From Polytrichum commune (lineage: Eukaryota; Streptophyta; Polytrichopsida; Polytrichales; Polytrichaceae), in the NCBI GenBank assembly GCA_950295325.1, contig OX485805.1, positions 31,669,501 to 31,733,500 of the forward strand: 64,000 nt of DNA, in the 5' to 3' direction. Positions 6,101 through 62,100 of the stretch are shown here, piece after piece (the first letter of the stretch is position 1; each line of letters opens with the position of its first letter). The notes under the pieces were generated by a model that saw nothing but the letters and a program-made list of their open reading frames with translations, was not told where the DNA came from and did no database searches. Both the position numbers and the translations under genes were made by a program.

Positions 6101-8769
6101 AGACAACATGGTCTTGGTTTTAACATCTCCATCCATGCATTTGTAATACTGCCCCAATTTATAATATCATGTTGCTCTCTTCTGACTATGCAATGATGCA
6201 AGATTTTTTTTTAAGAAATAAAACCTCTGATTTGGTACACAGAAACGCACTGCACGTTTCTGCAAGGAAGTAGGGAGCTTCGAGGGAATCCAGAACTTTG
6301 ACTCTTGGTTTAGCATATTGATCCTCACATTTACACTATGGCCTCAGTCTTGAATAGCCTATCACTCTCTTCTGACTATAAATTGATGCAAGAAGAATTT
6401 GAAGAAAGACCAGCTTCTGGTTTGATAAACAAGAACGCATTCTGCAAATATACTCCGTAGTCTTGGTTGTAGCATCTCAATCATCAACTTTGCTCAGTTT
6501 ATAGTGTCCTGTCACTCTCTTCTGACTATTCAATGATGTTTTTAGAAGGAATACAACCTTCTGATTTGGAAAACAACAACACAAAATCTGCAAGGAAGCA
6601 GAGAGCTTCAGGTAAGGCTAGAGAGGAAATCTGAAGAGGACAACAAGCTATTAAAATTGAATGCTGGTCATAGATTTTAGTGGAGATGGAAACTGCTTCA
6701 TAGACCAGTTAAAGCGTCTTTGTGTCAACTGGATACAAGAAACAATCAAGAAATGCAACATTTTGATTTGGTAAACATCGACACCAAACCCTCTGCAATG
6801 AAGCAGATAACTACGTGGTAAAACTCTATGGGCTTGGTTTTTATCATCCCAATCCTCACATTTGGTGTTTCGGTCTCATCTGACTATGCAATAATGCAAG
6901 ATAACATTAGAGAAACACACCCTTCTGATGTAGTAAACACCAACACACTGCAGCCCTCTGCAAGGAAGTTGCAGTGAGCGAGGTTCGTGAGGAAACAGAA
7001 GAGATTTTACCTTGATGCCATCTCGGATAAAGAAGACAGGGAAGTTGTTGCCAACCATGTCAAAATTGCCCTCCCGGGTGTAGAATTTGACAGCAAACCC
7101 ACGTGGGTCACGCAAGGTCTCAGGGCTCCCCCTCTCATGTATCACAGTCGAGAAGCGGACAATCAAAGGGGTCTGCACACCAGGTGCCCTCAAGAAATCA
7201 GCACATGTAAGATGCGAAATATCATGAGTTACTTCGAAAAAGCCCTTGGCACTCATTCCCCGGGCGTGGACCACACGCTCAGGAATTCGCTCCCGATCAA
7301 ACTGTGCCAGCTTCTCCACCAAGTGATAGTCCTCCAGCAACACCGGACCTACAATCAATCACATACCAAACAATTTAATTTTCTCTTTCACCACCATTAT
7401 CATGCAAAACACCATCTCACAACTCTTGAAAATCTTGAGAACCACATCGAAATGTATGGGAAGAAAAATGCCTTGTAAGTCTCGATGGTCATATCCAACT
7501 TACAGACAGATAGAGGTAACCCGTAAATCAGGAAATGTGAGTCAAGAGAGTGTTGATCCAAGGCTTTTGAAGTTACATACCCAATGCAACGCAATCAGGG
7601 ATTGGAATGAAACGGAGAATAACATCACACATGCTGCAATAGCCAAATGGTGGCAAGCCATTTGACTAGAGGCCAATCTATCCACAACAATAATCTGCAT
7701 GGAAGAAGTCGCATTCCACGAAACCCCCACTAACTTCATTAATTCGCAACAGTGAATGCATCCTTGTCTTGATGAGTTTCTGCTCCTCATCTCCAGAGGT
7801 AACCAGAAGACTCAAGCAAATTGTTGCATAGCATGTGTACCAAGATCTCAATTCTAACACAAGAAAACCGGGAAAGGTTTAACCAACGCCCTAAAGTAGG
7901 AAAACAGAGGGCAGAAGATTAGTTCATAATAGAAGGGAAAAGTATTCACCTCTGGCGCCGACGGTGAGAGACGAATTGTTGTTCCAAACTGGGGCTCCTT
8001 GGTTGGTAGTCCAGAAAGGTGTATCATACTGGCTAGACGGCCGATACTGCAGCAACACGAACTTATTTCATTCGAGTTTCATAACACATGCACATTCTGT
8101 ACAGCTCATGTCCCCAGCCTTTCACACCGAAGGACACTACGAAGAGAGAAAATTAAGAGGAGACAACGAGACGTCAAATTGCTCAGACAAGCTCCAGCTG
8201 ATGAGGGCAACGCAACTAAACAGAACTAGGTGTTGCAATTTCTTTCCTCCGAGAAGGAAGACCAGCGTAATTGCACAAGGAGAGTAGTTTCGAAGTAGGT
8301 TGAGAAAGTGAATTGGCCTCGCGCGTCAGCAAACCCTGAATCCAGACTACCAAGGAGTAGCCATGATGGATCGAGAAAGGTGATACAGACCTCCGAGGTA
8401 ATCTGGTTCTTCTCTCACTCTCTATCTCTCTGCCTCTGTCTCTCTCACACATCATGCCACTAAAGTTCTCTTGCCAAGAAGAGAAGAAGAACGGCTGGTA
8501 GTTCAGTAAATTTTTGCTGCTCCAGTTGCGATCGCACACAGCGAAAGAACGGCTGCCAATTTGGATCACGAAAGACGACGGGGACCCGAGAGAAAAAACA
8601 TACATCCAAAAATGTGGAGGACTGATTCCATGTCCGACCAGACCTCCACAAGCGATTTGCTCGTTCGATCGCCTCAGACGGCAAGAAGAAGGACAACATT
8701 CCAACAAGGCGATTACAACTTACTTCCCAAAAGAAAAATACCGAGAATTCAAACCTTGTATGGATCCAT
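3109..8769 (-). CDS. CAT: catalase, 10 exons, complete
   Basis: Heme catalase that splits hydrogen peroxide into water and oxygen, normally in peroxisomes. Coding exons, 5' to 3' on the minus strand: 8755-8769, 7950-8046, 7011-7348, 5812-5994, 5346-5615, 4720-4983, 4239-4328, 4004-4071, 3330-3423, 3109-3168. All junctions are GT-AG and in phase, giving 1479 nt and 492 aa, the usual plant length. Seen directly: distal His65 in RVVHARG, Asn138 in [12 protein letters not shown], proximal Tyr348 in [17 protein letters not shown] with Arg344, and the core motif [15 protein letters not shown]. The first exon codes only for MDPYK, and [11 protein letters not shown] follows directly after the next acceptor, which fixes the start. 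The C-terminus is ...NMKASM; plant catalases carry an internal PTS1-like import signal near this end. Nothing is broken. Introns 2, 3 and 8 hold repeats. The family assignment is secure; the isoform is not assignable. Confidence 0.97.
3541..3850. repeat. degenerate tandem pair in catalase intron 8
   Basis: Two diverged copies of a ~140-bp segment lie at about 3541-3684 and 3719-3849. Each starts near CATCTGATTTAGTGTG, passes through TCATGTAGCA and ends in CAGTGATTGCAAGA. The edge words ACTAAACATCTGATTTAGTG resemble the palindromic ends of the MITE at 11950-12267, so this may be an old insertion of a related element. Confidence 0.6.
6100..6990. repeat. degenerate tandem repeat filling catalase intron 3
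   Basis: Intron 3 (5995-7010) is largely built of four to five diverged units. Each has TCTGACTATNCAATGATGCAA, then TTCTGATTTGGTAAACA, then a GCAAGGAAG word. Unit heads lie near 6180, 6366, 6520 and 6880. The unit is not similar to the other repeats in the window that I checked. Confidence 0.6.
7680..7850. repeat. intronic repeat shared with MSI1 (catalase copy)
   Basis: Lies in catalase intron 2. It shares an ordered series of words with 49383-49545 in MSI1 intron 4, in the same orientation: AATCTGCATGGAAGAAGTC, TCGCAACAGTG, AGAAGACTCA and TGTGTACCA. About 160 bp long with several indels between copies. It may be a SINE or short MITE; no internal Pol III boxes were recognised. Confidence 0.65.
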
Positions 8770-17390: not shown

Positions 17391-17998
17391 GGAACCCTAA
17401 CATTACCCAGCCCAAAGGAGGTAAATGCTGTGCTGAAATCGAGGCATGGCAGTGGGTCAGCCCCTCGGGGGTCGGGTCCTGGTCTGCCTGCAATAGAGCC
17501 TTTGCTGGCATGGGCTGTAACGACACTGTGGCACGCCAAGCTGCCCGCGCCAGGCTGGCACGTCAAGCTGCCCATGCCCAACTTCACATCACATCACCTT
17601 CCAGCATGGCATTCCCATGCCATGAGGACCATGTGGCCCATGGCCGACATCCATCCACCCAGGTAACCTAATCACCCTCGGGGACTGTGTTTTGGGTTTA
17701 GGGTTTGGAAGACCTCCATCCAACCATGGTTTAGGGAATCATTGTAACCTGCACACTCCGGATTTCTACCGCAATGGATTGTCTTGCATGAAGTGATGTG
17801 ATTGCAACAATGAAGCGCTGAAGGGATCGTAACCATGCCTCTCATTGATCGTAACGTAGGCATTTACCAAAGACTGTAGATTTATGCCAAAATGGACTGT
17901 CTTCTATGTATTAGTTGTGCTGCCATTTGTAGTGTTACTAAAGTTACTAAATGTAAATCCAACTTTGCATGGAAAATAAGTAGTCACAACAAGCATGC
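17391..17998 (+). repeat. ~600-bp dispersed repeat, copy 1
   Basis: Matches the reverse complement of 29109-29742 over its full length at high identity. Shared marks include CCCTAACATTACCCAGCCCA, CAGTGGGTCAGCCCC, TAACGACACTGTGGCACGCC and AAATAAGTAGTCACA. Overlapping open frames on both strands come from its high GC content; the frames differ between the two copies, so coding is not supported. Confidence 0.8.
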
Positions 17999-18350: not shown

Positions 18351-18846
18351 TAATTTTTTAGGTGTTTTTGGTTCGGATGTGTCTGTATGTCCTCTTTTGA
18401 ATCAGTTGTTCATTGTAATCATCATTGATGCAGGTGTGAGCAGCTCTAGGCGCAAGTTACGGAAGGCGCATTTCAGTGCGCCCTCAAGCGTGAGGCGCAT
18501 TCTTGTCAATGCTGCCCAATTTTTTAGGTGTTTTCGGTTCAGATGTGTCTGTATGTCCTCTTTTGAATCAGTTGTTCATTGTAATCACCATTGATGCAGG
18601 TGTGAGCAGCTCTAGGCGCAAGTTACGGAAGGCGCATTTCAGTGCGCCCTCAAGCGTGAGGCGCATTCTTGTCAATGCTGCCCAAATTTTCAAGTGTTTT
18701 CGGTTCAGATGTGTCTGTATGTCCTCTTTTGAATCAGTTATTCATTGTAATCACCATTGATGCAGGTGTGAGCAGCTCTAGGTGCAAATTACGGAAGGCG
18801 CATTTCAGTGCGCCCTCAAGCGTGAGGCGCATTCTTGTCAATGCAA
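18351..18846 (+). repeat. 166-bp tandem repeat, three copies
   Basis: Three units start at 18351, about 18517 and about 18683, with a period of 166 bp and very few differences, so the expansion is recent. Each unit contains GATGCAGGTGTGAGCAGCTC and a short hairpin, GGCGCATTTCAGTGCGCC, followed by GTGAGGCGCATTC. The overlapping open frames are a by-product; 166 is not a multiple of three, so one protein frame cannot run through the array. Confidence 0.9.
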
Positions 18847-28859: not shown

Positions 28860-29075
28860 AGGATCGCCTTCTCCGACTCCGAAGGAGTGAAAGCTGAAGA
28901 GGAGTGTAGCCCTAGGATTGCCTTCTCCGACTCCGAAGGAGTCAAAGCCGAAGAGGAGTGTAGCCCTAGGATCGCCTTCTCCGACTCCGAAGGAGTCAAA
29001 GCCGAAGAGGAGTGTAGCCCTAGGATCGCCTTCTCCGACTCCAAAGGAGTCAAAGCCGAAGAGGACTGTAGCCCT
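28860..29075 (+). repeat. 54-bp tandem repeat, four copies
   Basis: Units start at 28860, 28914, 28968 and 29022 and are almost identical, so the expansion is recent. The core is ACTCCGAAGGAGT, a short palindrome. As 54 is a multiple of three, three frames remain open; the plus-strand frame reads IAFSDSEGVKAEEECSP per unit. No gene context supports translation, though an expressed repeat protein cannot be excluded. Confidence 0.9.
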
Positions 29076-29108
29076 AACCCTGGGCGGCATTTCGGGGAAG
29101 CACCTCGC

Positions 29109-29742
29109 ACGCTTGCTGTGACTACTTATTTTCCATGTGAAGTTGGATTTACAATTAGTAACTTTAGTAACATTACAAATGGCAGCACAACTTATTACAT
29201 AGAAGACAATCCATTTTGGCAAAAATCTACAGTCTTTGCTAAATGCCTACGTTACGATCAATGAGAGGCATGGTTACGATCCCTTCAGCGCTTCATTGTT
29301 GCAATCGCATCACTTCATGCAAGACAGTCCATTGCGGCAGAAATCCGGAGTGTGCAGGTTACAATGATTCAGCAACCATGGCTGGATGGAGGCAGAAATC
29401 CGGAGTGTGCAGGTTACAATGATTCCCTGGATGGAGGTCTTCCAAACCCTAAACCCAAAACACAGTCCCCGAGGGTGATTAGGTTACCTGGGTGGATGGA
29501 TGTCAGCCATGGGCCACATGGTCCTCATGGCATAGGGATGCCATGATGGAAGGTGATGTGATGTGAAGTTGGGCACGGGCAGCTTGACGTGCCAGCCTGG
29601 CGTGCCACAGTGTCGTTACAGCCCAGGCCAGCAGAGGCTCTGCTGCAGGCAGACCAGGACCCGACCCCCGAGGGGCTGACCCACTGCCATGCCTCGATTT
29701 CAGCACAGCATTTACCTCCTTTGGGCTGGGTAATGTTAGGGT
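29109..29742 (-). repeat. ~600-bp dispersed repeat, copy 2 (inverted, abuts the Ty3-type element)
   Basis: Reverse-complement partner of 17391-17998. It carries an extra internal duplication near 29337-29430, where the word GGCAGAAATCCGGAGTGTGC occurs twice. Its edge at about 29742 coincides with the point where readable pol sequence of the Ty3-type element begins, so this repeat probably replaced or interrupted the 5' part of that element. Confidence 0.75.
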
Positions 29743-29747
29743 GCAAG

Positions 29748-30400
29748 GAAGGGTTGTTGGTGGACCCTAAAAAGGTGGACGTCATAAAAGGATTACCCCC
29801 ACCAACCACAGTACGGGGAATCCGGAGTTTCTTAGGACAAACTACTTACCATCGTAAATTCATATGGATGTATGCTGAGATCACACGGCCTTCGTATTTA
29901 TTACTTAAGAAAGGAGAGAAGTACATTTGGACCAAATCTTGCCAGGAGGCCATCGAGGAAGTAAAGAAAAGACTTACAACCACACCTATTTTGATAACTC
30001 CCAACTGGGCAATGGAGTTCCACGTGCATTGTGACGCCTTTAACATAGCCATTGGGGTTGTTTTGGCCCAAAATATACATGGCGACAAAGATTCTCCAAT
30101 CCATTACGCAAGCCGACCTTTGAACAATGCAGAGAAAAACTACAGCACCACTGAACGAGAAGCTCTGGCAATGATCTATTCAGTGGGCAAATTTAGACAC
30201 TATCTATTAGCCAACCATTTTGTCTTCTACGTAACCATCAAGCCTTGATATACTTGGTCAACCGACCAGTAATATCTGGACAAATTGCGAGATGGATGCT
30301 TTTACTTCAAGAAAATGAATTTGAATTTGTATACAAACCCGGTAGAAGACATGTCATGGCTGACCACCTATCAAGAATTGAAAGTGGAGAAGGACCCTCA
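29748..30400 (+). mobile_element. Ty3-type reverse transcriptase end and RNase H (fossil part)
   Basis: Recognised by the RT-to-RNase H junction LPPPTTVRGIRSFLGQTTYH, the RNase H start VHCDAFNIAIGVVLAQ, the YASRPLNNAEKNYSTTEREA block and the tail FVYKPGRRHVMADHLSRI. These match the standard plant Ty3/gypsy pattern in order and spacing. The catalytic palm of reverse transcriptase is not included because the sequence is replaced upstream by the ~600-bp repeat ending at about 29742. Confidence 0.9.
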
Positions 30401-30460
30401 GGGGTACAAGACCAATTCCTGGATGCAAGTTTATTCATGGTTCATGTGCAACCCTTTGAG

Positions 30461-33400
30461 GATTGGCGAGCACCTTTCATCGAATATCTTACTCACGGAA
30501 GATTGTTGCCAGTTCTAGCTACCCCACGAGAGCAAAACATGATTAGACAACTGAGTGAACCACTTGTTTTAGACAACGAAAAACTCAAGCGGGTAAGCAT
30601 CACCGGCAAAGTACTTAGTGCGTAGCCGGTGACATTATTGAAGAAATTATAGGCGAAGCCCACGAACACGAGGGTACCCATTTCAACCTGACTACCATAT
30701 GGAAGTACATACTACACACACCATATTGGTGGCCTACCCGTCAGGGGATGTTTTGGAATATTGCCAAGAATGCCCGATGTGTACGATTGCAAACAAGAGA
30801 GAGACAAATGATACCTTTACCCCACAAGATTCCGAAGACGACGACAACTCCCTACCTGTAGATGCTTTGAAAGCTCAAGAGAATCTAACAGGTGAAACAA
30901 AACCAGATTGGACGACACCATATGTCCAATACCTAACACACGGTATCCAATGGGAGAGTGACTTACTTGAAGAGGAAAAAAGATTGATAGTCAGTTTTTC
31001 ATACTGAAGGAAGGGGAATTACACCGCATCTTCCACAACAACATCATCAAAAGATGCATGCCTGGAAAATATGTGAGAAGTTACATAAAAACTCTTCATA
31101 TACAAGGGAATCGGCACTATTCAATTAATGCCATTAAGCAACTTATCTTACAGGAGCCATATTGGTGGGCCACTATAGCGGAAAACCTCTCGTTGTTCAT
31201 TACGTTGTGTACGGGATGCCATGGAAAAGGGGACGAGCTACCCACCGTAGAAGACTCCCCCATACCTAGTATCCCGGAAGAGGTAATACCCTATAAGGAA
31301 ACCTCCCATGATTGGAGGACGCCTTTAATTGAGTATATGACCCATGGGGAATTCAAAATTGGGACAAAAACACAGAGGGAGCATAGATAAATAATACGAG
31401 AAAGTGAGAAGCTCATATTGGAAGAAGGAAAACTTAGAAGATTGGAGAGAAGTGGAATAACCATGGTATGCATTGCAGGGTCCCAAATAAAGCATTGGAT
31501 TTGGGAAATGCACATTTATTAACAAAGACACTTAAACATCGACCAAACCTGGTATCGGGTTTCTAAAGGAAATCGATGGTGGCCTACAATGAGTGTATGC
31601 AACATACAAAACTATCTCATTTACGATTGCCCTACATGTTGGGGTAATTTCCAAAGAAAACCCCGTAACATAATTTGCGGGACAATTACAACACAATCAA
31701 ACAACAAAGATTGGAGGAATTCATTGATAGAGTACCTCACTTATGGGTACCTAAAAGGGCCCCACATCTCAAAAAGGCAACACAAGAGGATGGCTCGACA
31801 AAGTAGGGAATACTTCATTGAAGAAGGGAAATTGAAAAGAATATTGTCGAATGGGGACATTAAGATATGTATTGCCGGACATGAAGTCAACGAATACCTG
31901 CAAGAATTACATGTCATTGAATCATGAGAACATCTTAGCATAGAGATGATGTGGCACCTGGTCATGTTTGGACCACACTGGTGGCCCACATGCCAAGTTG
32001 ACATTAAAAACCTATGCAATTGGAAATGTTCGGTTTGCAACAACCAAATAGAGCTTTCAAAAGACAAGCAAACACAATCACTCCTAAGCGGGAAAGACCT
32101 ACGGAAAATAATTACTACGGATTGGAGACACCCTTACATGGAATACCTAACCTGTAAGAGAATCTTCACCCATAACTTAACACCAGAAGATAAAAAGGTT
32201 GTTGAACAAAGCCATAAGTATTTTGTGTTTATCAATGGTACTTTACAAAGAATACGTAAAGGAGGGAATAGTAACCAACTTTGTATTCCAGAGACTCAAG
32301 TACCCATGTACCTAGCCAACATTCATGGCGAAAGCAAACCCTATTTGGCAGCCATAGAGACGTGGAAGGCAGTGGCCACATGAGCATATTGGTGGCTGAC
32401 ATGGGGAAACGACGTGTGCAACCATCTAAGACATTGCAGGACTTGCAAGGTAACGGAAACCCAGGAAAGTCACCTAGAAGCCCGTCAAAATTTGTTTCAA
32501 CAAGAAACAACACATGGACCGGATTGGAGGCTCCCAATTAGACAACAACTAAAGAACATTGAAAAGTTGCACCATATTGGCACACATGAAGATTTGGGGT
32601 TACTCAGCCTCGACACCGAGACTTATTTCATAATCGAAGATGGTTTGAAATATCGATTACTGAATGAGGAAGTCAAAATGTGCGAAACAAAAGAGGACGC
32701 CATTGACTGGGTCAAAAGGATACATGAATATCAAGTACCTCACTCGACAAGAATAGAGATACTCACCCAAGTGCACAAAGGCCCATATTGGTGGCCAACC
32801 ATTTATCCCGACATAGGGCAAATAATCGACGAATGCAAAACATGCCAAATCACCACAAAATCAGGACCCAAAATCAATAATTATGGGACCATCGTCTTCC
32901 AAGATAAGAACATACATGATTGGAGAGAACCAATCATCCAACACCTCAAAAACCCAATGGAACTAAGTGACTTTACCTTCCACGAAGAATTGGAGGTATT
33001 ATGAGAAGAATTACCCAACTATTTCCTAAAAGAAAGGGATTGAAATGGAGGTTTGCAAATGGAGACATTAAACTTTGCATATCCCAAGAAAAGGGAATTG
33101 AATGGTTGACAATCATTCACCGTCAAAGGTCCCCACATCTCTCAATGGATGAGATGATTTCACAGGTCACCTTAGGGCCTTATTGGTGGCCTACGATTCC
33201 TCCGGACATTGATCATCTCTGCAGGGAATGTAAGAGTTGTTGGCCCAATAACTCTCCAGAGCATGTTGTGGATTGCAAAACGATCACCATTAAGGAGAAG
33301 CAAGAACACGATTGGAGGACACCCTTCATCGACTACTTAAAACATGGGAGGTTAACCACAGAAGCATCAACCACACAACGACAACAAATAGCCATACGCA

Positions 33401-33690
33401 GCCGGCCGTACATGCTAAACCATAATGGGACATTGATCAAGGAAGGGCTAGATGGTATACGACAAACATGCGTAGCCGGACCGATAACGATGGCCATTAT
33501 TGCGGAAGCCCATGAAAGAATAGTTGGAGGACACTTTTTCAGCCAATATCACCTTACATTGGTGGCCCAATATGAAGAAAGATGTCTATCTTTATTACAC
33601 TCAATGCGATATTTGTCAAAGGGTTGGCCCCAAAATCTCGACAAACCTCCAACCTCTACACCCTACCATGCCCACCGAGGTGTTTCAAAA
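30461..33690 (+). repeat. eight tandem, diverged integrase zinc-binding (HHCC) modules (fossil part)
   Basis: In plant Ty3 elements one linker (DWR-P-I-YL-HG ...) and one HHCC zinc-binding domain (H...H...YWWPT...C-C) lie between RNase H and the integrase core. Here that unit occurs eight times. The linker head (DWR or DWT) starts at 30461, 30905, 31310, 31709, 32120, 32522, 32918 and 33310, a spacing of 392-444 bp. Each unit then carries a WW word (mostly TATTGGTGGCC in DNA) and a C-x2-C pair such as CKTCQ, CKSCW or CDICQ. Example heads: DWRAPFIEYLTHGRL, DWRTPLIEYMTHGEF, DWRHPYMEYLTCKRI and DWRTPFIDYLKHGRL. Units are highly diverged from one another, yet the period and key residues persist. 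The last unit leads straight into the integrase core. Confidence 0.85.
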
Positions 33691-34670
33691 AATGGGGTTT
33701 GGACTTCATTGGACCAGTCAATCCACTGGCTAAAACCACCAAAAATCGGTACATTATCATCGCTACTGACTACACCACCAAGTGGGTGGAAGCTAGAGCT
33801 TTAAAAGACAACACAAATAAGTCAACAACCAAATTTCTTTTTGAAGAAATAATTACAAAGTTTGGATGTCCGTTGGAGTTTGTGAGTGACCAAGGAAGCC
33901 ACTCTATCAATGACACCATCAAAGTGCTCACTCAAGAATTTATGATTTTACACTGGAAGTCAACAACGTACTACCCACAGGCTAACGGCCAGGCTGAAAG
34001 TACCAACAAAGTAATTAAGATTGCCTTGACCAAAATGGTTAACGCCAATCAAACCGATTGGGACACCAAATTACACGCAACACTTTGGGCCTATAGAACA
34101 GCCTATAAAGTTACAACCAAGCACACTCCATTTGCATTAGTTTTTGGAACGGAAGCCTTATTACCAATGGCTTATCTTCACCCCGATGTCTACCAAAAAC
34201 GAAGTCAGGAGATTCATCCCATTCTAGAAAAGAGAATGGAACAACTCAAGGTAATAGATTTAACTCGGCATGAAGCTGAGGAAAATATGAAACATATGCA
34301 ATTATTACACAAGGAAAGACATGACAAGCCACGGACAAAGACACAATGTAAGCATTGTAACCATGGGATAACCAAACCACCACGAAAGGAGGCCAAGAAA
34401 CATGACACCTTGAAGGAAGAAACTATGCAAGCTATTGAGGAAATTAAACACTCTCTAGTTAATGAAGATAATGAGCAAAACCCTACACATAAAACATGTT
34501 TTTATCCCGGCCAACGAATCTTATGGCATCTACGCCATAAGATACCTGGGCCAAGAAAATTCAAAATACAATGGGCCGGACCTTACCTAATTAAACAAGT
34601 ATACGACAATGGATCTGTGGATGTTACTATCCTACAAGGAGAAAGTGTAGTGAGTTTTTGCTATGATTGA
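33690..34670 (+). mobile_element. Ty3-type integrase core and C-terminal region (fossil part)
   Basis: The DDE core is recognisable: the first D in IIIATDYTTKWVEA, the second in EFVSDQGSHSI, and the glutamate in PQANGQAESTNK. The downstream ALWAYRTAYK-like and TPFALVFGTEALLP blocks are typical of plant Ty3 integrases. The C-terminal GPF-like stretch reads FKIQWAGPYLIKQVYDNGSV near 34560-34620. A lysine-rich spacer separates the two. No chromodomain is seen. Confidence 0.9.
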
Positions 34671-34689
34671 AAACAACAAAACCCAGGGA

Positions 34690-36640
34690 ACTATGTCTCC
34701 AGGAAGACTGAGATAGTGTCTATAAGGGTTAATGTCACATTGGATTAAGGATTATAATAACAACTTGAGGTCTTTCTTACTTCATTCCTTCTTAATTCCA
34801 CTTATTCCCCACTCTTATGGTTCCTTGGTGCTTTCTCTGTCATGAGTGATTCCGTCCTATCTTCAGGGTATTTTCTATCACTCTATGTTTTGACCTACTG
34901 CAGTCATGAAGCTCAATAGCTTTGGCAATAGTCTTCCAATGGATTTTCATCCTATTGGGGTTAGTCTCTTCTTTCTTCATTCATTAATCATTTAATTCCA
35001 TCAATCATAATTCAAATTGTATTGCTCAAAGAATCGGTTCCTTCACTTTATCTCATTTATCATTTATTAATTATAATTGCAATTCACTTATCTCGTGCTC
35101 TTCATTGTCACACACAACACACAAGGGTTTGCTTTGATTCCTGCAATATCCTTACATAATCACACAACTCATAGGCTATAGCCATTAGATTCCAATACAA
35201 TCTACTCGACGGCTAGCCTAATTCCTCTCACATCAAACCATATCACTCTCATTCCTAATCATATCAAAGCACGCTCTTTGTTACTTAGATTACTTATCGA
35301 CTCGACACCATCATGATTCTCCAATTCTCATCATATCTCGGTAATCCCTCTAAACTTCTTGTCTTTCCTAGCAATAATCATTATGAACTACCTCATCACT
35401 TCAGTTCAGGTGGTTACTTAAGACATCTCTCTATCTTGTTCCTTCTGGCAGTTTCTACTTCGCCTTCATCAGTTTCCTCTCTCACAGGCAATAGTCTATT
35501 AGGTTACTCTCGACCCTCGGCCATGGTCGCACCAAACTCTCGGTGTTCGGCTCTCTGTTTCTGTCTCTCGGCTCTCTGTAGAATTTCTCTCTCTGTTGTG
35601 CATTAGTGTGACTTAGCCGTCTCTGAAGATCACTCATCTTTGTATTGATTCTCCTATCTTTACAATATTGGGCACATTATGACATTCTTGGCAATGTTCT
35701 GACGCTCTTGGCTATGGCCCTTATCTTACTTCGCTATCAGGCAATAGTCCACTACTCTTGGAAACTCTTCTTCAATTTCTAACAACAATGCTCACGGCAT
35801 CAAACCCGTGCTACAGACTATGGCCCTTGCAATGATTTCTACTTAGGCTATAGTCCATCTCAGTCACCGTAAACTCTTCTTCTCATTTTGACTTAGGTTA
35901 AGACTCTTCAAGTTCTTGCGGTTATCTCTCTCTCTCTTTCTTCGGCCAATAGCTCTCAAGTTCGTGTTAACCCTGGCTATAGCCTATGCCTTCTCTGAAA
36001 CAATTTACTCTCTTTGAATCAACCTAGGGTGGCTTCTTAACTTCGACTCACCCTGTTTCTTTCACAATATAGACTATAGCCTTTTTCTCAGTTTTGATCT
36101 ATCTCACTCTTCCGATGCCACTACTCTGATTCGCTAAACATATTCTCTCATCTTCAATCAACAGTTCTCCATATTTTACTCACTTGCTTTACTCACATTG
36201 GTTTCTCCTCACTCCATTTCTCTAATACAACTTTATCATGCACGGATTCAACTTACAAATACCATGCACATAATATTGCCATACTTGCATAACTCAAATG
36301 ATCCTCTTTACTCAATTGATTCAAAATCAAATTTGTTTAGCCGCATCCCCCTATCACAGGTGGTGATGCTCCTATGCTGATCTAACCTTAAAGATGCTAC
36401 ATTCAACTAGCTCTATAGTCTATAGCCTGATTCTCTACGGCTATGGCCTTAGCAGATTTAACAAGAAGTATCTTCTCCTTGGCGATAGCCCGCTTATCAA
36501 GCTCGGAGCTCCCGGCGGTTGCAACTCCCAAAACTACTTTCCTCGGGCTATAGCCTTCTGATTTCATCCTAAACTAACTTTCATCTATCATTTTAGTTAC
36601 TTTATTACTACCAGGCTATGGCCAGAAAAATGGTATTACA
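34690..36640. repeat. noncoding stretch with recurrent GGCTATAGCC-type words (inside the Ty3 element)
   Basis: About fifteen variants of a near-palindromic 10-mer occur in 1.7 kb. Examples are GGCAATAGTC (34923, 35488, 35738), GGCTATAGCC (35173, 35971, 36547), GGCTATGGCC (35703, 36441, 36610), GACTATAGCC (36069) and GGCTATAGTC (35851). Between them the sequence is C/T-rich with many TCTC and TTCATT words and no long frame of protein character. It lies between integrase and the extra ORFs. Confidence 0.6.
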
Positions 36641-36661
36641 GAGAGCTTAGGACGAGTCAAC

Positions 36662-37045
36662 ATGAACAAACTAAAACCATATCAAGAGCCAGAAACCACC
36701 CAAGCCTACGCATTACAAATTCTAGCATGCCACATTCTGGAATCAAAGCTTAGGGCAAAACGACTTCAATTACACAAAGAGAATAATAATCCTCCAACCC
36801 CGATGACTACATTTACCCAATCAAGTACGGAAACCCTCTCCCACACCGAAACTACCCCTTACCTAGATCAAGAAACCTTGGAAGCAAAAGATTTGGAAGT
36901 ACATAGAGTCATGTGTGAGGCCAAACCCACCACCCTTAAGCGTCATAGTCCGGGTGATGGTTTTGAGACTCGCATGTGTCACACCAAAAGTAGTAACATA
37001 AGATATAAGTCTCATCTCAATGAACCCCCAACTTCTCTTAAGTTA
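36662..37045 (+). mobile_element. extra ORF region of the Ty3 element, first block (fossil part)
   Basis: A 128-codon hydrophilic frame, rich in T, E, K and Q, begins MNKLKPYQEPETTQAYALQI. No known domain is recognised. Sequence of similar composition resumes after 38330, on the far side of a putative inserted solo LTR, which suggests one accessory region was split by that insertion. Confidence 0.4.
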
Positions 37046-38310
37046 TGATGTTTTATTAATGCAATTTTCTTGAGTGGGTATAGCATTGGCCGCCTCAAGG
37101 GTCCATCCCACGGCCTTAGCTACACATGCTCTTAAGGACTTTCCTCTTGAAACCTTAGTTCTGGCCGTTAATTCTTCACTAGTGCTCGTCACCTCGCTGA
37201 AGTTGTGACTTGTTGACTCCATGTGATGAGTACACAAGTGTTAAAAAACACTTATTACTCTCATCACTTAGCGTTACATCATCTTCTGTAATTCTTCGCC
37301 ATTCACTCCCAAGTTCGTTCATTCTTCGCCATGGCACCCTTAAGTGCTTGATTACAATCCCAACAACTTAACTACAAGTTCCCCCCCTTGATATCACTTT
37401 ATGATGCCTTGTAGTCAACTCCCTAGCTAAATGTTCATTACCTAATTAACATTAGGTAATATTCTTATTAATTAACTATGACCCAATCTAGTGTCCCAGC
37501 TGTCTAACTTCTGAACCCAATATTGTATTTCCAGCAATTAACCCTCTGACTAAATACTGTAGTTCCAGCAACTAAATACTGTATTTCCCAAAGCTATAAG
37601 AGTTCAACTCCTTAGAAGAAAGAGAGCTTTAAATTCAACATGAATGTGGATGCTACAATTCTAAATGCCATGATTCCAAACATTATAAATCTAAATATTA
37701 TGAATCTAAATTCTATAAGTCACATACAACAAGCTAAGCTTTAAATGTCTCAACTAAAGACTACTCCTAACAAATGTCAAACTAACTTTAAGGTGAATTA
37801 GTCTTGGTTCTTCACCTTGAGACCTTGTACACACATGTGCTCCGTTCTTGCTTCCCACACCCACACTTATAACACGTGGGGTGCCAAGGAGCACGAAGGA
37901 GAAGAGGATGATAGAGGGAAGAGTGAGAGTTTATATAGTGAGTTGAGAGGGAGTAGGTGAGCACCCCCAAGGCTCAAGATAAGACTTTTGATCATTTGCT
38001 ACTTTGTAGGTTCTCATCCTATCCTCTAAGACTTCAACTCTTAAACCAACAACTTAGGTCTTAATTCAAACATTTAAATCAAGGAGTTACCCTTGGTTCA
38101 CCATACACTACGCTCACCTAACTAAGGAATTTTCTTTACACCTCTAAATTTTTAATCAACTACTCCACACGAGCCTAAGGTCTAAACATAACTTCATTCA
38201 AGCTTCACTCTTTTTATATTTTTGTGAATAATCATAAAACATCAAAACATAACTTCTAATGGTTTCGAAGAGTTAAGAACACATGTGAGCACCATTTTGG
38301 GCTCACATCA
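37046..38310 (-). mobile_element. putative solo LTR inserted in the Ty3 element (fossil)
   Basis: A 1265-bp block bounded by TGATG and CATCA. Read on the minus strand it has TGATGTGAGC at its start, a TATA-like word CTATATAAAC at about 37930-37940 followed by a CT-rich stretch, and an AATAAAACATCA end. That is the layout of an LTR (U3, TATA, R/U5). The flanking five bases (AGTTA and TGCTA) do not match well, so the call is tentative. Confidence 0.4.
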
Positions 38311-39373
38311 TGCTAGAATGATACTACATACAACCCTCAAAACAAGAAAGTGTTGTTATTAAACATCCAAGAAATGACAAGGTTGAACCATCAAAGAAAG
38401 ATTTTAATCCCATGGACCTCCAAGAGAGAACCTTGACCTTAGAAAACCCAAAACTAATCATTAAAGAGAGTCTTCAATTAGAACTCCCCACGGAAGGTAC
38501 AAATTTCATATACCCCACCCTACCACCCTTAGAGCAGGGTAAAAGAAACCAAACTTCCAGATAAGTTTCTATGAACAACTTCCTAGGAAAAGACTCACTC
38601 GGGATAACCAACTAGAATAGTAAACCAGTGAAAGCCCTTTCATCACCACTAATAGATGAAAGGAATATTGTGATGTCACAAATACCTAAAACTTACACAG
38701 AGTAAATGTACTAATAAGGATTGTTATCACCAAGGATCACCCAAAAGTGGAGGAAATGATGTAAAGGATCGGCCAAAATCTCAGGAAGTTCTGACACATG
38801 GATGAATTATAAAATTCAGATTCCGCTTCCATAAAGGAAGTCTCAACTGAGATGGAAGACAATTTTATGGACAGTCTTAACAAAGTAAAAACCGAAAAAA
38901 AAGAAAAAATGATGTGGATTTCCGAGTATCTGGATGAAAGATTAATCTTGCATGAATAAGAAGGGGCTCATCCTCTCGAATCTTTTTCAAAACAATGAGG
39001 CATTGTTGTCCCCATGGCAGTCGGATGAATCAGTCATTCAATATAGACTTGCTGGAAAGCTTGCAAATATGATAAATCTTGGAAAGAATCATTGAAGCAG
39101 CCATGGATGAAAGTTATGTTCATAAACGTAATGACCAATTGAGAGCCACAAGAGAGAAATGCCATTATGAGGGATTTGTTTATCTCCTACAATCAGTTTG
39201 TAGACTATTGTGAAACCCAGACGAGGAATAAAGCCTTTGCGACTTGAGAAATCTATTTCTTTTCGTTTTTTTGAATTTTATTTATTTAGTTAATTTTTAG
39301 TGCTTAAATTCCTTTGATAAGGAAGAGTGTGCAAATTACCATGATACAATAGAAATAGACGAAGACACAACCA
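38311..39373. other. unassigned interior of the Ty3 element
   Basis: Coding-like composition (lysine- and glutamate-rich in the plus direction) is visible around 38340-38560 without a recognisable domain. From about 38580 to 39370 nothing specific is seen. Confidence 0.35.
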
Positions 39374-42300
39374 TTGCAAATCCAACAATTAAGAGCAAAC
39401 ACATTAGAGAGAGCTCACACAATAATTAATTCGAGTCCAATAAAGAGAAAAGTCACTACAAACAACTGTGTCAAAGTGAAGAAGTTAAAATCCAATTTGT
39501 TTTTGTTTGGAGGGGTCCAACAAGTGGACCCCAAAGAAATGGGGATTCCAACCACCGAAGTAGGGAATCCCACAGAAGGGGAGGACTTACAGTACCTGCA
39601 CAAGAACCACTCACTCACACACAGTCAGTAAGTGAATTAAAACCAAACTTTGACAGAAAAATTAGGTTGAAAGGTGATAATTGAGGTAAAAGGAAAGACT
39701 AGCAGGGACTGGGTCCCACCCTCCAGTTGTTAAGGTAGAGCTAGCTGGAGCTCATCAGACCCTAATCAAGAAACCTCAACAGCCAAGTTCAGTTGAACCC
39801 CAAGGGAGCGGTGAGAGAGAAACCGAGCTCCCACACTCACGCGCAACAATTGCCACAGGAACACCTGAATCAAGGAAGTTAGAGCAAAATACCATATTTC
39901 CCCTGAAACTAAGAGGAGGATCAGGATGGAAAGCCCATATGAGGTTAAGCCGCGGCTGGATGAGCAGGGAATATTCTAGAAAAATTTGCAAGCCATTTGT
40001 CTGCAAGGATTCACCTCGGTACGCTGGAGCACGAGTGAGTTCCAGTGGTATCCCCAGTTATGCAAGTTTCACATTTACCAAAGTTTATTGTGCAAAGTTG
40101 TGACAAGGATTAAAGAATCATATTTCGTTGAGAAAAATGAAGAGGAGGCAAGGAGAGGAAGAGCCTGAGAGGTATTTGTTTGTTGTGGACGCCCTCCTCA
40201 GGAACCATGAGTTTTCTTTGGAGGAAGTCAAGTTCCTCCGACATATCAACTTAGAAGGTTTCGTGATTAGAATCACGTGGGGTGTGTTACATGAAACCTT
40301 GATTCGTGAGGCGTTAGCCAACCTGTAGGAAGAAACTATGCTGACTACATGCAGGAGAAGGCAATCCCTTTAATTGCAGTAGATTGGAGAACCCAATTCT
40401 GGGAGATCTTTGAGCTTACCAATCGAAAAGGAAAGGCGAGCACTCAGTGGAAACTTTCCGAACTATTTCCATCGCTCAAGACAGCAACCGAAGGACACGA
40501 GACAGTAAAAATCACTGATTGTGCATATCCAGGTGCCAAGAAACCTCTCAAAATCCCGAGTTCTTTATTTTGTCTCAATACATCTGGTCAAAATCACATT
40601 TCTATATTATTTGCGGAACTGATTCTAGCAGCTCTGAATGGCCAAGCAGTTGACTGGCCTAAAGAGTTCTACCATGAACTACGAGAAGAGCTTGTAAAGC
40701 TCCACAAAAAACATTCCCAAAATCCGGTAAAGGTAGAGCGAACCACTATAAGCCCTCACCTCACCCTAATGATCAAAGCCGCGGGAGTCATGAACTTGCA
40801 ACATGAAATTGAAGCAGGTTTCCATATGGCCAAACCATTCACCACAGCTGAAACCAAGAGTCAGCCCAAGAAGAGAAGATACACCAAGGCACCAATGCCA
40901 CCACCAACCTTACACAACACAGTGAGGGTGGTGCAACCCAACCCGGATCGTCAGCAGGGCCCATCCACATCAGCACCCCCACGAGTTTCGGAAACTTCTC
41001 GCTCTGTGGTGATCGAAACAGAGGAGCCATGGCAGGTTCCAGAGGCCATACCCAACAGTATAGAACATGTGAAACAGGTGCACAGGAGGCTGGAGAATTT
41101 ACTCACGACCCTTGCAAGCAAAGCACCAGCTCTACAAAATCCAACAGGACATAGCTCTGCATGAGGACGCAAAGCTCCTAAATAGTAACACCAACACATT
41201 AAGGTCATAGATTTTTAAATCTCAGAACGCTCACATGGAACAACTAGAGAAAAGGGTCCGCGACACAGAAGAATTAAACGACCTATACATCGAAGACTCC
41301 TTTGACTTGCATGACCAACTTTCTGAAATGCAAAAAGAAAGTGAAGGGTTGAAAAAAGAAGTCCAGGCTTTCACCTACAGAGAGCAGGAAAACCTGATCA
41401 AGATTCTGGATCTGGAAAGAGCCAACTTACAACAAACCAGGGCTAAGGAGACAGAACTGGCGGCAATGCGAACCCAACTTCAAAAACTTAGAGAAGAAGC
41501 AATAACTCGCAACCTACATGCAAGTCAAGCAGCCGAATCACTCTGAACCCAACAACATGAAAGGATGGATCTCACTTGATTGCATGCGGAGAACCGAGAA
41601 TTGAGAGTAGCCATGGCAGCAAAAAAACCGATCCCCGCCTTCATAATGGATTCCGAGTTCGGCCAGCATTGGCAACGCCCCATAGATCGGACAGAACGAC
41701 AAGCACTGGCAGAGGGAGCAGCGGATCAATTACTTAGCGATCTGCAACATGAGCTCTAGGTCATCAAACAAGAAAATGATGAGTTACAACACCAACTTCA
41801 ACAAGGGACCCCAGTTGGCCGAATGGGATTACCCCAGTCCAACATTCACCCGAAATCAGAAGTCTACCAGCGAGTCCTCCACCGTACGGAACCCCTCATA
41901 TCAATAATGCAATGTCACCATGCGTATGGAACTAGCAACCTACCCATACTAAAAGAAGGTACCACATTAAACCATGAGCAATTCAGAGAGTTGTGGCAAC
42001 AAACCAACCCTAGAGCCAAGGATACTTTAGCCTTCATGTGGGTTGTGGGTGACATCAAACTACCACTGGGAAGCATAGAAGTGATTACCGGATCTCCCCC
42101 TTTCTTTATCAGGAGATACGTACTACGGAACATAGCATTTTTGGGACAACACCAAGCTATTCAAGTTAAGGAACACCCCACCAGCCATGCACTACCCTCA
42201 TTGTGCCCTTACACTCATAGTCAGAAGATTGAAATCGCAAAGCTCCAACACCAGCATAAGACAACTTTCCACAATGCGATCAATGCCCTGCGAAGAAAAG

Positions 42301-42500
42301 ACATGGCAATTTGCTTCGAAGCAGCAAGGCGACACCGATGGCTTTTGGAACATTTCCCAAATCACTCAACCCCCGTGACATTGTTTCAACTTAAGGAATA
42401 TGTAACTCAAACATTGGAGGAGCAACAAATCACAATCACAACAAGGCGATTCGGCACCATCAACCATGGAACCATCCTTCGAATAGGACTACCGGATTGA
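39374..42500 (+). mobile_element. accessory ORF region of the Ty3 element with coiled coil (fossil part)
   Basis: A series of frames on the element's strand, downstream of integrase and ending 50 bp before the polypurine tract. The first large block (40349-41164) has VDWRTQFWEIFELTNRKGKA and AALNGQAVDWPKEFYHEL, then a basic, proline-rich tail. The second (41235-41546) is a predicted coiled coil (heptad-like, from MEQLEKRVRDTEELNDLYIE on). The third (41823-42500) contains DTLAFMWVVGDIKLPLGSIE. Accessory ORFs 3' of pol occur in several plant Ty3 lineages; function is unknown. The region is broken in several places. Confidence 0.55.
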
Positions 42501-48065: not shown

Positions 48066-52262
<4,197 letters not shown>

Positions 52263-59127: not shown

Positions 59128-62100
59128 CAGTCCTACCTCTTTAATATGACACGTTTGGGAAACGAGAAAAGGTCGTATTATCGAGGTATCACATATTCAA
59201 TAATATGACAAATTGGACCTGGTTGTCACAATAACGAGGTACTTCATAAAAACACACTTGAGATATTTTGCCATATATAAAAATGAGTATTCTTTCAAAT
59301 GTATTACAAATATGCAAATTCTCCTCACTAAACCTATGTGGACTTGAAGAAGGAATCAATAGTCCGCTGATGTTGCCACTTCAAGTTAGCAACATATATC
59401 TTATTGAGCTTCTCTATTATGCCCTGCAATTTCATCAGATTTGCGGGAGTGAAGTCTAATGAATTGTCCATAAAAAATGTAGCTAATAGCTCAACATGTT
59501 GTTGAGCATCCGTTAGTTTCACAATAGGTGTAGGTCTCTCATCAACATCTAAAGGGTTTACGGTCTCAGCAGTAAGGTCCAAACTAGCTGGCTCTATTCT
59601 CTGTCTTAAGGCCATATCAACCAGCTCTGACATGCAATATTCAACCTTAATGATGTCTTCACCTTCCATTACCACATACTCTTCAAATGACATCTCATTT
59701 GATCCAAACTGCAGTTTTGATATAAGAAGGGCTAGGACTTCGGACTCCTTGATCAGTCTCGATTTTTCTCTTTGGTCCTCATTAGCAAAGTGTACACTCC
59801 AATCAGGTGGAAAATTTCTTGATTTTCTCCAACAGTTTCGAATAATCTGAGGATCTATATCTGTCCAAACTTTATAGCTCCAGAGAATTGCTTGTTTAAC
59901 GTTGGGTACAACTTTTCTCAAATCTTGTTGCTGATCTAAATCAAACTGCGATAAAACCCATTCAAGCAACTTGGACTTGTATCGCAATTTGAAAGCATCA
60001 ATTATGCCTTGGTCCAACGGTTGCACTACACTTGTGCAATTAGGAGGCAAAAAAATAATTGTCACATTTGTCATGGGTAATGCCGTAAAACCTGACAAAT
60101 GTTTCTGTTGCATACCAGACAAGGAATGACATGAAGCATTGTCCATAATCAGCAGGATATTACGATCTTGTCCTTTGAAATGGTTGTTAAGCTTTTGCAT
60201 CCAAGTCTCAAAAATATCTGACCTCATCCATGCAGTAGTATTTGCATGCCAATACACAATGTCGGAAGGACTCCATCGACCAAAGCATCTCGGTCGTTGT
60301 GACTTGTGAATTACCAAGAGTTTCAATTCGTCTATACCTGTGGAATTCACTGCAAATGCTAAAGTAAACCGATCCTTTTGTATCTTCATGCCCTTCACCT
60401 TTCCTTATGCAAGAATTTTGGCTAGTTGTGCACGAAAATACAAGCCTGTCTCATCCAGATTATAAACATCTTCAGGTTTGTATGTTGCTAACAATACATG
60501 CATTTGACTCATTGCTTGAGCAACAACTTCTGCATTAGCTTCACCACTCTCTCCATGAAAGTTGACCCTACAAATCAAAGCAAAGGGTTAATTTATTCAC
60601 TCAAAACAACACCTAAAATCTTATGACTTTTTATGCAACAACTTCTGAAACTTACTTCTGAATTTGGTGCCTATTCTTAAACTTCTCGAGCCACCCATTT
60701 GAAAACTTGAATGATTCATATATGCTCACAAATTATGCAATGACTCCAATTTGCTCTAGACATGCTTCTTTGAATTTCTTGGCCTTGCTAACCAAATGCT
60801 CATCTGAAACCGATCCATCTTTACTACGAATCTGCAAATTTATCATAACAATTCAGAGGTTGACCCCAAGCAACATCAAACTCAAAAGCATAGAGTCATA
60901 AGAGATAACAACATTAATATCAAATTGAGATTCAGATAAAAATGTGGACCTGTTTGAACCATGTTAATAGAACGCTCTCAAGCTCTGGATACACTGATGT
61001 CTTCTCTCGCTTCATATCTTTGAGGTTGTCACCAGCCTCCAAGATCCTTGTAGAGTTCTTAAGAATCCGAGAGATAATGTTTCTCTTAACTTCCTTCCCC
61101 TTGTGCCTCTTATTAAAATCAACTCCTATCATTTCTTGAGTCCGATTGGGATTTGATTGGTGAATTTGTACTAGCTCTCTCTTCTCAAATAGAGTTAAAT
61201 ATGTTATCGTTCTCTTCCCATCTAGTTCCATCCTGAAAGGGACAACAATATACCACAATGAAATTATGAAACTGCAATTCAGACATCACCCTTTAAACTA
61301 TTGTAACTCAGTTGATATACATTGAAATCGAGCGAGACTACAACCAAAAGAAGCACAGTGAAAACAACTTTCCAACAATATCCAAAATAGAGTAATCGGA
61401 TTAAAACTCACCTCACAAATTGCAAAACCAAATGGTTGTCTTGAAATCAATATATGGAACTTGAGCAGTTTTCAAATCCACACATCTTTGCCAATACACA
61501 TCTGAAATTGAGCAAAAAAAACCACCAAAAGAAGCGAAATTCTCATAGCTTTCCAAAAATGTAAAGAAGGGTGTAATCGGATAAGAACTGACCTCACAAA
61601 TTGCAAAACCAAATCGATTAATTTCTAGAACTAGGCAACCTTCATATGCTCATAACTTTGTCTATACAACTCGGAATTAAGCAAGACTACCACCAAAAGA
61701 AGCGAAATTTCAATAGCTTTCCAACAATATGCAAAACACATCAATCAGATAAAAATTGATCTAAAATCCTCGAATCCATATTGTGGATGTCAATTTAGGG
61801 TTTAGGGTAAGAGCTGCTGCGAAAAAGACACCAGCTGATGAGTGATGTGAGTGTGAGTAGGGTTTTAGAAAGAGAACCTAGTTCCCATGGTTCTCATGTT
61901 TATTTCATCATTTTACATTTAAACTTTCTTAATCCAAACTTCATATGTATAAGATTTATGAATTTAAAATAAATTATGTATTTATGTATATATAAGTGTG
62001 TGGGGCCCACCATATAAATGCATTTATTAGCTCTATAATATGACATTTGGGGGGGTCTAGGAGTGTCGTATTAACATTGTCATAGTCGTAGTATAGAGGT

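Follow-up and report, generated by a model that had tools for sequence, protein, structure and literature searches.

Eight tandem NED- and NTD-like modules in the integrase region of a Ty3/gypsy element from Polytrichum commune

The window analysed here, a 64,000-nucleotide stretch of the Polytrichum commune genome (contig OX485805.1, positions 31,669,501 to 31,733,500 of the forward strand), holds a copy of a Ty3/gypsy retrotransposon in which eight modules resembling the front of integrase stand in a row on the plus strand (30461-33690), between the RNase H and the integrase catalytic core of pol. The end of reverse transcriptase (RT) with RNase H, the eight units (U1 to U8) and the rve core follow one another in Ty3/gypsy pol order on this single strand (Table 1). 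To our knowledge, retroviral and long terminal repeat (LTR) element integrases are treated as having one N-terminal domain (NTD). With moderate confidence, we read the array as an amplification of the integrase front from one to eight modules, each resembling an N-terminal extension domain (NED) plus NTD, with the seven extra modules forming a multivalent, beads-on-a-string arm that faces the host or the target.

The eight units and the module they repeat

An initial annotation of this DNA, made from the sequence alone, had proposed eight strongly diverged copies of the integrase HHCC module with a period of 392-444 bp, each keeping a DWR-type head, a WW word and usually a C-x2-C pair. The row of eight is borne out: a GATTGG (Asp-Trp) head stands at the start of every unit, and a profile built from relatives alone touches all eight. 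Head-to-head spacings are 445, 404, 399, 411, 402, 396 and 392 bp, so that the lower end of the proposed period is exact and the upper end should read 445. The head is DWR in seven units and DWT in U2, WW occurs in all eight, as does C-x2-C in some frame, and both histidines (H-x5/6-H) are present in seven, the second having been lost in U5. The units are indeed strongly diverged, at 22-48% identity to each other within the window (aligned stretches of at least 26 residues), which argues against recent slippage.

The relatives-only profile, which was built with the window excluded and models the part after the head, gives 12 matches at E ≤ 0.013 in the 64 kb, all on the plus strand within 30619-33673, U8 being matched as two pieces (0.013 and 1.3e-7). 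It finds nothing elsewhere in the 64 kb, a single extra row at E 96 in the same region being worthless, and the controls are clean, the reversed window giving no match at E < 1 and 20 mononucleotide-shuffled sequences none at E < 0.01. A second profile, built solely from 16 single-unit relatives, yields seven matches with E < 0.01, which fall on six units (U1, U2, U4, U6, U7 and U8), with weaker ones on U3 (0.07) and U5 (0.025) and one stray match elsewhere (E 0.64). With the Pfam HHCC model (PF17921) the signal is weaker: one of the ten window pieces examined scores above the gathering score (in U6, open reading frame (ORF) 32384-33001) and three are sub-threshold. A search with an integrase HHCC profile, as the initial annotation had suggested, therefore finds more than three HHCC-like units with the relatives' profiles, Pfam passing its gathering score in that one piece only.

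What is repeated looks like a NED+NTD module, more than a zinc finger. The U7 model can be aligned with the NED+NTD of prototype foamy virus (PFV), MLV and Ty3 integrases, the NED half being less certain, and the five units modelled (U4-U8) share a common fold, so that a NED+NTD fold is predicted before the core, as in retroviral and Ty3-type integrases. The HHCC reading of the unit thus stands, refined to a NED+NTD module that comes in two kinds (see below). PFV and MLV integrases have one N-terminal module, and identity of their N-terminal region to the array module is 14-21% over the aligned part. Yeast Ty3 integrase likewise has one module per integrase, as against eight here (7q5b; available text of PMC8632968).

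Among units of at least about 60 profile positions in the relatives, all four zinc ligands are invariant in U2, U3, U4, U5 and U8 (n = 4, 4, 6, 13 and 6 sequences), and in U7 (n = 13) the histidines are kept in 92% each and the cysteines in 100%. A chance test of this conservation gives p = 0.128, 0.061, 0.012 and 0.0017 for U2 to U5, 0.11 for U7, 0.29 for U8 and 1 for U6. In part of the family U6 is partly stripped of its zinc site, to judge from the aligned residues: the second histidine position is H in 14 of 20 sequences and P in 6 (P0005, P0006, P0008, P0009, P0020 and P0021), several of which lack further ligands while keeping WW. The window's own U6 keeps all four. A complete U1 was seen in a single relative, P0025, which has Y at the position of the first histidine. 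The pitch of the units is steady at 131-152 residues, and the linkers between them have low model confidence and are probably flexible. On average U2-U5 and U8 are basic and U6-U7 acidic; that charge differs by module argues for specialized modules rather than a uniform nucleic-acid coat.

Relatives, two kinds of module and other lineages

The array is shared by a family of 27 proteins (P0001-P0016 and P0018-P0028) from ENA and JGI contigs. ORF 32384-33001 (206 residues) used as query returned 16 proteins at 36-70% identity, a longer query piece ten proteins of 534-956 residues at 60-68%, and the U8-core part of P0021 returned P0028, P0033 and many single-unit proteins (120 of 122 matches listed). 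By tblastn the window is 89% identical to P0025 in RNase H (30012-30233), 68% to P0018 over 30989-32983 and 86% to P0021 over 33672-34415. At least two units occur in 22 of the 27 family proteins and one in each of the other five, so the family is not one of single-unit members, and in all 22 multi-unit proteins neighboring units are numbered consecutively, with no change of order. In P0025 one open frame covers RNase H, U1, U2 and most of U3. P0018 is open from the last part of U1 up to the U7 head; in P0019 the frame takes in U3 to U8 and enters the core, and in P0021 it takes in U4 to U8 and the core and reaches the C-terminal part, the open frames of P0018, P0019, P0021 and P0024 having 787-956 residues. 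None of the 27 proteins holds all eight units, and in relatives the count of eight comes from overlapping fragments. Because the order is fixed and the frames are still open in relatives, their sequences suggest a functional part that has been retained, and not an accident of a dead copy. The proposal of an array present and maintained in the living family is supported in the same way, P0018, P0019 and P0025 carrying the same units in the same order.

The element shares with plant Ty3/gypsy lineages the joining of RT, RNase H and integrase in one polyprotein (Neumann et al., 2019; available text of PMC6317226), and the text of that survey available to us makes no mention of a repeated HHCC unit. 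Repeated integrase HHCC modules are likewise not described in the titles and abstract openings covered by a literature search, subscription papers and preprints lying outside it. Plant Ty3/gypsy elements have a DWR-type linker before HHCC. A single HHCC domain is not what is found here, with eight in the window and at least two in 22 of 27 relatives. Elements of the Tat/Ogre lineage carry a second, archaeal-type RNase H between RNase H and integrase; membership was considered and rejected, P0025 passing directly from RNase H into U1 with no second RNase H type in Pfam (E < 0.01). The chromodomain that marks chromoviruses was not found in P0021 or P0024 (Pfam, E < 0.01), a search that divergent chromodomains may escape and in which protein ends may be cut.

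Two kinds of module can be told apart in the aligned sequences. In a unit tree of 71 rows and 97 columns (again without units under about 60 profile positions), which is limited by long branches and few columns, a 100/100 branch sets U1-U7 and three outer units of P0033 apart from U8, the inner P0033 unit, both units of a two-unit lineage and 16 single units. Since U8 groups with single-unit relatives, we take it as the ordinary domain and U1-U7 as a separate set. Within the tree U3, U5, U6, U7 and U8 are each recovered as a single group; U2 and U4 are not resolved, and U1 is one row.

The two kinds also differ in rate. Counting units of at least about 75 profile positions, mean identity between family members is 77, 64, 64, 68, 60 and 62% for U2 to U7, with U8 at 88% and the core at 93%. 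In the six pairs with both core and units, sequence difference relative to the core is 4.4-fold for U4-U7 and 1.5-fold for U8. In single-unit controls the unit/core ratio is 1.4 over 28 pairs (of 61 listed, leaving aside 33 Chara pairs in which unit and core are about equally alike) and 1.9 over the ten pairs with cores at least 86% identical, with single values up to 5.0. The outer modules are thus unusually variable on average in sequence, with some single-unit pairs in the same range. P0021 and P0024 are 98% identical in the core yet 58-63% in U5-U7, a disparity that could also mean exchange between elements.

Among 115 further proteins (P0028-P0142, among the matches listed), six carry two tandem units (P0029, P0031, P0032, P0035, P0037 and P0056), P0033 has at least four, its start being cut, two units in P0093 lie more than 700 residues from each other, and the remainder have one or no unit at E < 0.01, one being a lower bound for the many whose ORFs are cut. 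P0033 aside, the nearest proteins outside the family are about 45-56% identical over U8-core, the named ones among the matches listed being from ferns, liverworts and gymnosperms. The two-unit lineage resembles the eight-unit family in having more than one NTD-like unit but differs in having two, and its cores group apart. Enough core for the core tree was present in four family members, which fall together in a clade of their own (100/100); the two-unit lineage makes up another (100/99), beside Adiantum elements (92/78), one of which, P0054, passes by eye from the end of RNase H into a single unit. The separate core clades and single-unit P0054 favor independent duplications, and the two-unit lineage probably arose by one of its own; approximately unbiased (AU) tests on the unit trees leave this unproven (p = 0.342 and 0.343). 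Its outer unit diverges faster than its inner one (ratios to core of 2.8 and 2.1). P0033 has, like the family, a U8-like core-adjacent unit (70-82% identical to U8) within at least four units; its other three units, at 34-39% to the reference U1-U7, are not colinear with them. In the two-unit lineage and its Adiantum neighbor an aspartic-protease-like domain lies after integrase and not before RT (Pfam support in P0032; by eye in P0029, P0035, P0056, P0061 and P0070).

The window copy and its surroundings

The window copy is dead: from 30206 to 33706 its frame changes at least seven times, and the frame-2 stretch 30989-33034 holds four or more in-frame stops. The rest of RT and all upstream parts of the element were not found within the window, and the gag/protease region, missing here, is spanned by no family protein found. 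No LTR-like direct pair of at least 60 bp flanks the element in the window, the copy itself being truncated and interrupted.

Table 1. Parts of the Ty3/gypsy element in the window
Feature	Coordinates	Strand	Evidence
End of RT and RNase H	29730..30454	+	tblastn with P0030, P0035, P0025; Pfam RT_RNaseH_2, RT_RNaseH
U1, NED+NTD-like module, frame broken	30461..30905	+	1.1e-10; matches U1 of P0025, P0018
U2, head DWT, H-x5-H and C-x2-C, internal frame change	30906..31309	+	1.1e-24
U3, two in-frame stops	31310..31708	+	2.8e-06 and 7.2e-13, two pieces
U4, one in-frame stop	31709..32119	+	6.4e-10 and 3.7e-16
U5, one in-frame stop, second histidine lost	32120..32521	+	2.6e-12 and 4.7e-09
U6, open in window copy	32522..32917	+	5.1e-32
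U7, internal frame change	32918..33309	+	1.5e-35
U8, core-adjacent ordinary HHCC unit, internal frame change	33310..33690	+	0.013, 1.3e-07
Integrase catalytic core and C-terminal domain	33672..34649	+	Pfam rve 3.6e-07, just below gathering score
Pol C-terminal tail, continued	36641..36961	+	tblastn with P0024, P0026, P0028, 57-64% identical
Pol C-terminal tail, another piece	38307..38558	+	tblastn with P0026, P0028, 39-47% identical
Downstream open frame, tentatively assigned to the element as an extra ORF	41760..42500	+	P0007 tail, 55%

About 2 kb (34650-36640) split the pol C-terminal tail. Two open frames downstream of pol, 40310-41164 and 41760-42500, may be extra ORFs of the element; neither has a Pfam family above cut-off, and 41769-41888 matches (55%) the tail of P0007, which in that protein adjoins the end of U7. 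Inverted arms at 17394-17998 and 29107-29742 are 92-97% complementary in four pieces, and the RT match begins (~29730) at the edge of the second. Short tandem arrays occur at 28860-29076 (54 bp x 4) and 18352-18844 (166 bp x 3), with 96-97% matches. The minus strand carries exon-like pieces of host genes for a catalase (6879-7358) and for a WD40 protein and an RBBP4/CAF1C-type protein (50459-50881 and 51852-52262), as well as a 356-residue open frame with a DDE_1 transposase match (59337-60404; 1.3e-32), possibly a recent DNA transposon.

What the array may do

Seven extra modules would give integrase, or its precursor, a beads-on-a-string arm and each chain a set of multivalent contacts. The likeliest partners would be host factors or chromatin that steer insertion, along with the element's own LTR ends; these correspond to the two functions described for the one NED of yeast Ty3, which stabilizes LTR contacts and is reported to bind TFIIIC (available text of PMC8632968). 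A host-facing or target-facing role is our best guess because the arm varies while U8 and the core stay stable. A more specific version, a fast-evolving recognition arm in which every bead suits its own host or chromatin partner and the element, by diverging beads, changes its targeting or escapes a host restriction factor while its catalytic end stays fixed, we regard as unlikely.

Some retroviruses obtain NTD contacts from extra flanking integrase subunits in multi-subunit intasomes, and the extra NTDs of the array could provide such contacts in cis, stabilizing or caging the LTR ends. The likeness of the U4-U8 models, the alignment of modelled U7 to the NED+NTD of PFV and Ty3, and the LTR-stabilizing role of the Ty3 NED (PMC8632968, same text) are all consistent with an intasome scaffold of this kind, a possible if not a probable role; U4-U7, however, diverge faster than U8 and the core, unlike an internal structural part, and U6 and U7 are acidic. 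That same fast divergence, with the partial loss of the zinc site in U6 of a subclade and the variation of unit number between lineages, would fit a passive array of duplicated modules, a long spacer of little function that the element tolerates between RNase H and integrase. We think this distinctly doubtful given the long open frames of P0018, P0019, P0021 and P0024, the kept pitch, the unchanged order in 22 of 22 proteins, and ligands that are invariant in U2-U5, beyond chance for U4 and U5 though not for U2, U3 or U7 singly. Release of the array by protease as a separate multi-zinc protein that binds RNA or cDNA, nucleocapsid-like, would suit the probably flexible linkers and the basic average charge of U2-U5, but the acidic U6-U7 do not suit it, and we hold it to be rather improbable. 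We give practically no credence to one-off slippage or an assembly artefact, for which the sole support is that the window copy is dead; it is refuted by the relatives with the same unit order in ENA and JGI contigs, and the strong divergence between units also speaks against it.

The stability of U8 and the core, set against the fast divergence of the outer units, amounts to a testable prediction of which part of the protein meets the host. A family with eight NTD-like units in fixed order and with open frames is a natural experiment on the roles of NED and NTD, and the gradation in unit number (1, 2, at least 4 and 8) would make targeting, intasome size and host conflict comparable within one group of elements.
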